Positions 15,356-15,806 of a stretch of 64,000 nt of DNA are shown here, one piece after another (the first letter of the stretch is position 1; every line of letters begins with the position of its first letter). The notes beneath the pieces were generated by a model. It was not told where the DNA came from. It did not search any database and was given only the letters and a program-made list of their open reading frames with translations. This DNA is from Corynespora cassiicola (lineage: Eukaryota > Ascomycota > Dothideomycetes > Pleosporales > Corynesporascaceae). Both the position numbers and the translations under genes were made by a program. The DNA lies in contig JAEUWY010000015.1 in assembly GCA_022059125.1 (NCBI GenBank), positions 1,054,001-1,118,000 on the forward strand, read 5' to 3'.

Positions 15356-15643
15356 GGTGAAAAAAGAATGATGGTTGTAGCAGTAGGCGTATGTTTATGG
15401 ACAAAGATAATCCAGTAGCAGGAGTAGCGCTGAAGTTGTTCCGGCACCGTCAATAGCATATTTAAGATCTTTCGCTCTCGGGTTTCTACTGATGACGTCA
15501 TATGCGGCACAGGGAGGCACGGTCTGTGGACATCTTCCGTGATCGGGCTGACATTTTGTTTCCCGAGCAGTATTTGCCGCCTTTCTTGAAATTGCTTACT
15601 ATATAATAAGGCAGATACTGAATTTTTACATAATCTCAACCAA

Positions 15644-15780
15644 GGCACTTTGGCGGAGTGGTTAACGCGCTGGCCTGCTAAGCCAGTTCCTTCGGGAGCG
15701 TGAGTTCGAGTAAGTTTCACCTCATTTAGGAACGCACTTCTATACAGAAGTCTAACATACCATAGATCTCACAGGTGTCG
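15644..15780 (+). tRNA. tRNA-Ser(GCT) split by a 56-bp insert in the T-loop
   Basis: The acceptor arm 15644-15650 pairs with 15773-15779 (AGGTGTC), with discriminator G15780. The D-arm follows A-box sequence TGGCGGAGTGG. The anticodon stem CTGGC/GCCAG encloses loop CTGCTAA with anticodon GCT (15677-15679), and a serine-type long variable arm follows. The T-arm 5' half is GTGAG then TTCGA, after which 56 bp intervene (15710-15765) before ATCTCAC completes it. Joining A15709 to A15766 gives a perfect GTGAG-TTCGAAT-CTCAC T-arm and an 81-nt tRNA. There is no intron at the usual 37/38 site. The insert splits the B-box, so Pol III expression is in doubt. A 13-T terminator follows. Confidence 0.9.
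15710..15765 (+). other. Intron-like insert within tRNA-Ser T-loop
   Basis: The 56 bp insert starts GTAAGT and ends CATAG, with CTAAC at 15752-15756, nine bases before the TAG. That is the full consensus of an ascomycete spliceosomal intron, in the usual length range. It has no run of four T, so Pol III could read through it. It sits between tRNA positions 58 and 59. A short hairpin (ACTTC/GAAGT) lies inside. A tRNA-endonuclease intron cannot be excluded from sequence alone. Confidence 0.75.
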
Positions 15781-15793
15781 CACACATCCTTTC

Positions 15794-15806
15794 TTTTTTT
15801 TTTTTT
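15794..15806 (+). terminator. Pol III oligo-T terminator of tRNA-Ser
   Basis: A run of 13 T begins 14 bases after the tRNA discriminator base, as expected for an RNA polymerase III terminator on the + strand. Confidence 0.75.

Follow-up and report, generated by a model that had tools for sequence, protein, structure and literature searches.

Introns with spliceosomal signals in the T arm of tRNA genes of the fungus Corynespora cassiicola

Eleven tRNA genes of Corynespora cassiicola are interrupted in the T arm by short inserts that carry the splice-site and branch-point signals of mRNA introns, and these are very likely functional Pol III tRNA genes bearing U2-type spliceosomal introns. They fall into four families, Ser(GCT), Leu(TAA), Gly(CCC) and Lys(CTT), which perhaps reflect four independent events, and are held in 10 natural loci. 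The insert lies between positions 58 and 59 in 5 genes and between 53 and 54 in 6. It is present in all three genes found for Ser(GCT), in the one gene found for Leu(TAA) and in six of seven intact genes for Lys(CTT), counts that support working genes. Every copy found of tRNA-Ser(GCT), an essential tRNA, is interrupted by an mRNA-type intron, so that the spliceosome, and not the enzymes that normally splice tRNAs, is probably needed to make the interrupted tRNAs.

The window, that is, the whole stretch of 64,000 nucleotides that was analysed, is C15:1054001-1118000 of a genome searched as 44.35 Mb in 23 contigs. A first-pass annotation had proposed a spliceosomal-type intron at 58/59 in the T loop of a tRNA-Ser(GCT) gene. 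The interrupted gene was confirmed at window positions 15644-15780, with a 56-bp GT..CTAAC..AG insert after A58, and the proposal was borne out by the 11 genes with like inserts, whose separate places in the genome also speak against an assembly artefact. The gene is laid out as follows, the basis being sequence unless stated.

15600..15605, + strand: TATA-like element, 44 bp upstream of the tRNA
15644..15709, + strand: tRNA-Ser(GCT) exon 1, identical in three loci (sequence and Rfam)
15651..15664, + strand: region that we take, from the A-box consensus, to be the A box of the Pol III internal promoter
15677..15679, + strand: anticodon GCT (D-arm-to-anticodon pattern search and ARAGORN)
15704..15714, + strand: GTTCGAGTAAG, the B-box core GTTCGA followed by the intron 5' splice site
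15710..15765, + strand: spliceosomal-type intron, 56 bp, between positions 58 and 59
15710..15715, + strand: 5' splice site GTAAGT
15752..15756, + strand: branch-point motif CTAAC, in the context TCTAAC
15763..15765, + strand: 3' splice site TAG
15766..15780, + strand: tRNA-Ser(GCT) exon 2, position 59 to the discriminator base
15794..15806, + strand: T13 run, Pol III terminator

Exon 1 holds the 5' half of the acceptor stem, the D, anticodon and variable arms, the 5' strand of the T stem and T54-A58. The insert reads GTAAGT...TCTAACATACCATAG and ends CATAG; nine bases separate CTAAC from its end, and 10 nt of intron lie beyond the predicted branch A at 15755. The Rfam tRNA match to 15644-15719 scores 34.8 bits and stops ten bases inside the insert. 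ARAGORN called no gene in the window, nor in the Ser(GCT) gene with its insert left in, and called tRNA-Ser(gct) once the insert had been cut out by script. When the junction was slid along the window gene, eight positions closed the T stem and three gave a TTCGA loop; only one of the eight stem-closing slides has GT..AG boundaries. A script found no T4 in the insert, and this, with the T13 run from 15794, supports the earlier suggestion that a Pol III product could span it. We take the insert to be more than a chance feature because two further tRNA-Ser(GCT) loci share the layout with diverged inserts, and because eight more genes in three other families carry the same signals.

Counting the tRNA-Ser(GCT) genes, a check proposed in the annotation, gave three in the genome, all with an insert at 58/59. 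Whole-gene BLAST and a D-arm-to-anticodon pattern (up to 3 mismatches) agree on this number, and both locate the two copies besides the window gene.

C15:1041737 region, - strand: tRNA-Ser(GCT), same contig as the window gene and about 28 kb from it
C2:3079927-3080060: tRNA-Ser(GCT)

A second D-arm pattern occurs exactly at 14 places genome-wide, with a GCT anticodon only at the same three. The exons are identical (81/81) in every one of the three pairs. The inserts, of 56, 53 and 53 bp, match in 35/56, 29/56 and 30/54 aligned columns (52-63%), and the 60-bp flanks on each side of the genes match at 28-53%. The invariant columns of the inserts form blocks at GTA-G, TCTAACA and AG, with a few scattered between. 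Fixed exons, freely varying inserts and constant splice signals are what would be expected under selection on the spliced product. We found no uninterrupted Ser(GCT) or Leu(TAA) gene in the assembly; one may exist unassembled or in divergent form, gaps in the assembly being possible. Relatives of the Ser gene were also sought elsewhere, with no match in viral contigs and two archaeal tRNA-Ser loci, not relevant here, in genome contigs.

The second D-arm pattern also led to the Leu gene and to a Gly gene, which carries the longest insert.

C23, from 1276919: tRNA-Leu(TAA), insert GTATGT..ACTAAT..CTAG at 58/59
within C2:4358225-4358430, - strand: tRNA-Gly(CCC), with a 37/38 intron and a 97-bp insert GTATGT..GCTAAC..GCAG at 58/59

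Genome BLAST gave no second copy of the interrupted Leu(TAA) or of the interrupted Gly(CCC) gene. The latter shows one acceptor-stem mismatch by eye, and two other Gly(ccc) loci called by ARAGORN (L037 and L125) have a T arm without insert. A 140-base Rfam match resolved into a tRNA-Lys(CTT) gene that is interrupted twice, by a 37/38 intron and by an insert at 53/54. BLAST and a D-arm pattern both recovered the same seven intact Lys(CTT) genes; their exon sets are identical except for one T-loop base, and one natural copy lacks the 53/54 insert. The 37/38 introns of the six interrupted genes are 13-16 bases long by ARAGORN, and, to judge by sequence, introns of two kinds seem to coexist in the Lys genes and in the Gly gene. 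An eighth Lys(CTT) copy (L151, G000:C1:1672040-1672390) has decayed, and both its exon signals and its 53/54 intron signals are gone. Two of the six interrupted Lys(CTT) genes form a tandem pair with 16 nt between them (L149, G000:C6:1322870-1323340), with a T-run only after the second, which suggests a single transcript for both.

With the inserts removed, ARAGORN called all 11 genes; with them in place it called none, and it called none in the 10 natural loci that hold them. If the genes are functional, a tRNA finder can overlook essential genes. Rfam put four interrupted Lys genes over the cut-off (29.3-37.4 bits) and gave no match for two; the interrupted Leu gene fell below it (26), the interrupted Gly gene had no match, and the uninterrupted Lys gene scored 56.5. 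The 61 distinct tRNA sequences found by ARAGORN have an uninterrupted T arm, and since the program permits no T-arm intron this inventory of normal genes does not count as a census. A profile search of the genome with RF00005 is likewise an incomplete census, having scored only the best 63 of 1206 candidates; at that coverage no Ile, Tyr, His, Pro, Val(AAC) or Gln(CTG) gene, nor some others, was seen among the tRNAs found. Introns at 37/38, some longer than 30 nt, were also observed in genes for Phe, Glu and Asp (L153-L156, L159-L163, L165, L166 and L168-L172), and most of these genes are missing from this partly scored RF00005 list.

The inserts share a uniform set of splice signals. Their 5' splice sites are GTAAG in 2, GTACG in 6 and GTATG in 3, hence GTANG throughout, and all 11 agree with the U2-type consensus GTRNG. 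All 11 end in YAG, as U2-type acceptors do. The branch motif is CTAAC in nine, CTGAC in one and CTAAT in one, and the branch A is followed by 10 nt in eight inserts, by 11 in one and by 14 in two. Every insert therefore has CTRAY at 10-14 nt, within the 6-36 nt before the acceptor given for the fungal consensus RCTRAY in a passage of PMC5832005; against that consensus, a purine precedes CTRAY in only 3/11, and T or C in 8/11. The inserts are 48-56 bases long, apart from the one of 97 (n = 11). Group I or II self-splicing introns were considered and rejected: inserts of 48-97 bases are too short for a catalytic core, which takes hundreds of bases.

For comparison, open reading frame and signals together gave 21 candidate mRNA introns in the window, against 6 in a reversed control. 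Their median length is 53 and their commonest branch distance 10 (5/21); the set was picked partly by the same motifs and some members are false, so only length and distance are informative. A homology check of two window genes with three gaps gave one clear intron, GTAGG..GCTAAC..CAG. In the other two gaps a script found no GT..CTRAY..YAG candidate, and one of them shows GTAAGA by eye. T4 is absent from all 11 inserts, for which shuffling gives a chance of about 0.04 on an assumption of independence that does not hold for these inserts, and T4 is present in only 4 of the 21 candidate mRNA introns; its absence weakly favours Pol III read-through.

The annotation had described the interruption as splitting the Pol III B box. 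It does lie in the T loop, but the box is not broken: GTTCGA is contiguous in the DNA of all 11 interrupted genes, at 15704-15714 within GTTCGAGTAAG in the window. In the 58/59 class the intron's GTANG stands directly after GTTCGA, and the bases beyond GTTCGA are not those of a usual tRNA B box. At 53/54 the intron ends in AG and the exon continues TTCGAGCCCC or TTCGACCCCC, again giving a normal B box. TATA-like strings occur within 60 bp upstream of 6/11 genes, including all three Ser genes. A T-run follows within 80 nt in 10/11, and the eleventh gene is the first of a tandem pair whose second member has one. Tested as functional tRNA genes, all 11 thus have a cloverleaf once the insert is removed (ARAGORN) and a B box, and 10 have a T-run.

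The same string stands beside other small genes. Nine U6 genes lie over the Rfam cut-off, and the eight that were read have no intron. GTTCGA starts no more than 41 nt past the gene end in seven of these eight, in the form GTTCGAGTAYG in four, GTTCGAGTATT in one and other forms in two, and no box lies nearby in the remaining gene. According to the review PMC5095917, the B box of U6 genes lies past the termination signal. From sequence, the exon plus 5' splice-site string, in its GTAYG form, seems to be used by local Pol III genes that are free of T-arm constraint. The GTAAG form, GTTCGAGTAAG, of Ser copies 1 and 2 stands beside none of the eight U6 genes, and genome-wide this pattern occurs at 12 places, 2 of them Ser genes. 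GTTCGAGTAYG occurs at 42 places, namely 3 tRNA genes, 4 sites downstream of U6 and 35 others. Reading these 35 by eye revealed no further tRNA, and Rfam on 11 of them and on the stretches upstream of two gave no tRNA or other credible match. The eight U6 loci read (L079-L086) show two kinds of 5' end, and their downstream boxes are mostly GTTCGAGTAY and not the tRNA form GTTCGANTCC. At L093, L100 and L104, GGTTCGAGTATG lies 7 to about 23 bases past T-runs, as at U6; these loci, which gave no credible Rfam match, are possible unnamed Pol III genes.

We infer the following course, including which polymerase and which splicing machine act, in what order the steps occur, and that mature tRNA is produced. 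TFIIIC would meet an intact B-box core, in which GTTCGA is followed at 58/59 by the intron's GTANG; in the 53/54 class the final AG of the intron would supply the G preceding TTCGA. Pol III would transcribe across the T4-free intron as far as the T-run. The spliceosome would excise the T-arm intron, thereby building the mature T loop, and the tRNA endonuclease would take out the separate 37/38 intron where one is present. These introns probably represent a natural class of nuclear tRNA intron that is cut by the spliceosome, is obligatory for at least Ser(GCT) and Leu(TAA), and has a splice site and a B box that share bases, the 5' splice site completing the box in the 58/59 class and the 3' splice site opening it in the 53/54 class.

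Other machineries might handle the same genes. Spliceosomal introns are best known from Pol II transcripts, and Pol II could transcribe the genes as short non-coding RNAs that are spliced normally, without Pol III. This option, which the annotation had raised, is the less likely one and in our view very unlikely, given the whole GTTCGA in 11/11 genes, the TATA-like strings in 6/11, the T-run in 10/11 and the lack of T4 inside the inserts; the single T-run shared by the tandem Lys genes also argues against it. Alternatively, the T-arm inserts could be cut by the tRNA splicing endonuclease and joined by ligase, as proposed for nucleomorphs and a red alga. Nucleomorph T-arm introns exist and are excised, and the review PMC4090602 attributes cutting at such sites to the endonucleases of some eukaryotes, while noting that the splicing of the shortest introns is unexplained. 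The Lys and Gly genes here do bear an intron of the endonuclease kind at 37/38. The T-arm inserts are not at that position, however, and the bulge-helix-bulge fold that the annotation had suggested looking for, in its strict 3-4-3 form (a four-pair central helix and two three-base bulges), was found in none of the 11 in either of two topologies; the nearest approach among the 11 junction pairs is a central helix in one Ser copy, with 3 of its 4 pairs formed. All 11 instead share 5' splice-site, branch-point and YAG signals at fungal spacing, and the six Lys 37/38 introns differ from them in having a common AAGAG, complementary to the anticodon loop. Endonuclease cutting of the T-arm inserts is thus highly improbable.

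It could also be that these are dead tRNA copies with decaying inserts. T- or D-arm insertions in single members of synonymous sets are usually read as pseudogenes, according to a passage of PMC4090602, and a decayed Lys copy is present at C1:1672221. That copy, however, lost exon and intron signals together, and in the 11 genes the splice signals are kept throughout and the exons are constant against diverged flanks and inserts. The annotation had allowed that the window copy was dead, but the three Ser(GCT) genes found are built alike and have the same exons, and the sole Leu(TAA) gene found is interrupted too. The case against decay is weakest for the single Gly gene with its mismatch; for the set as a whole, decay is extremely unlikely. 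A recent introner-type transposable intron that seeded the tRNA genes, which the annotation had offered as a source of the insert, is a rival on origin and not on mechanism. Introner-like elements are reported in Dothideomycetes, and the window's TCP-1 eta is nearest to Pleosporales proteins: the best named among 120 of 6179 matches are Karstenula, Pseudopithomyces, Clathrospora and Plenodomus at 90-93% identity, genera that we take to belong to Pleosporales, a dothideomycete order. BLAST with one gene per family, the window copy alone serving for Ser, returned gene relatives only, with no free or near-identical insert copies, and a query from one family did not find the inserts of another. 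This search covered four genes and with them 4 of the 11 inserts. A recent introner origin is hardly credible on this result; an old introner burst may have occurred.

Among known systems, canonical nuclear tRNA introns, cut at 37/38 by the Sen endonuclease, are likewise nuclear tRNA introns, and the Lys and Gly genes here have one; the inserts differ from them in their T-arm site, their GT-branch-AG signals and the lack of a strict bulge-helix-bulge. Koehrer et al., in EMBO J. in 1990, reportedly engineered a yeast tRNA gene with a pre-mRNA intron that was spliced by the pre-mRNA pathway. Such a construct would demonstrate splicing of a Pol III tRNA precursor by the spliceosome, but it is artificial, whereas the genes here are natural, several and apparently obligatory. 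U6 genes of some yeasts carry spliceosomal introns, and the S. pombe U6 intron holds the B box. Fungal U3 snoRNA genes carry them too, as part of PMC5832005 describes. Like the present genes, both are small non-coding RNA genes with spliceosomal signals of the ordinary kind, but here the intron sits in a tRNA gene, where the splice site overlaps both the internal promoter and the fold of the tRNA. The non-canonical tRNA introns of nucleomorphs and Cyanidioschyzon (Kawach 2005, Maruyama 2010 and Soma 2007, cited in a section of PMC4090602) share with these genes the T-arm site and the presence of several introns per tRNA gene. Those of Guillardia, by the same section, are 3-24 nt long and their splicing is unexplained or credited to endonuclease, whereas the inserts here measure 48-97 nt and have spliceosomal signals. 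In the openly licensed PMC literature we recognised, by title and abstract opening, no report of a nuclear tRNA gene that naturally carries a spliceosomal intron.

If this reading is true, tRNA maturation in this fungus would be tied to the spliceosome, and the presence of introns in all copies would make the tie obligatory. Decoding of AGY and UUA codons would then rest on the spliceosome, and a single tRNA, as for Lys and Gly, would require two unrelated splicing machines. The genes would also provide a natural setting in which to test whether transcripts of Pol III enter the spliceosome and how an internal promoter restricts the sites where introns settle.
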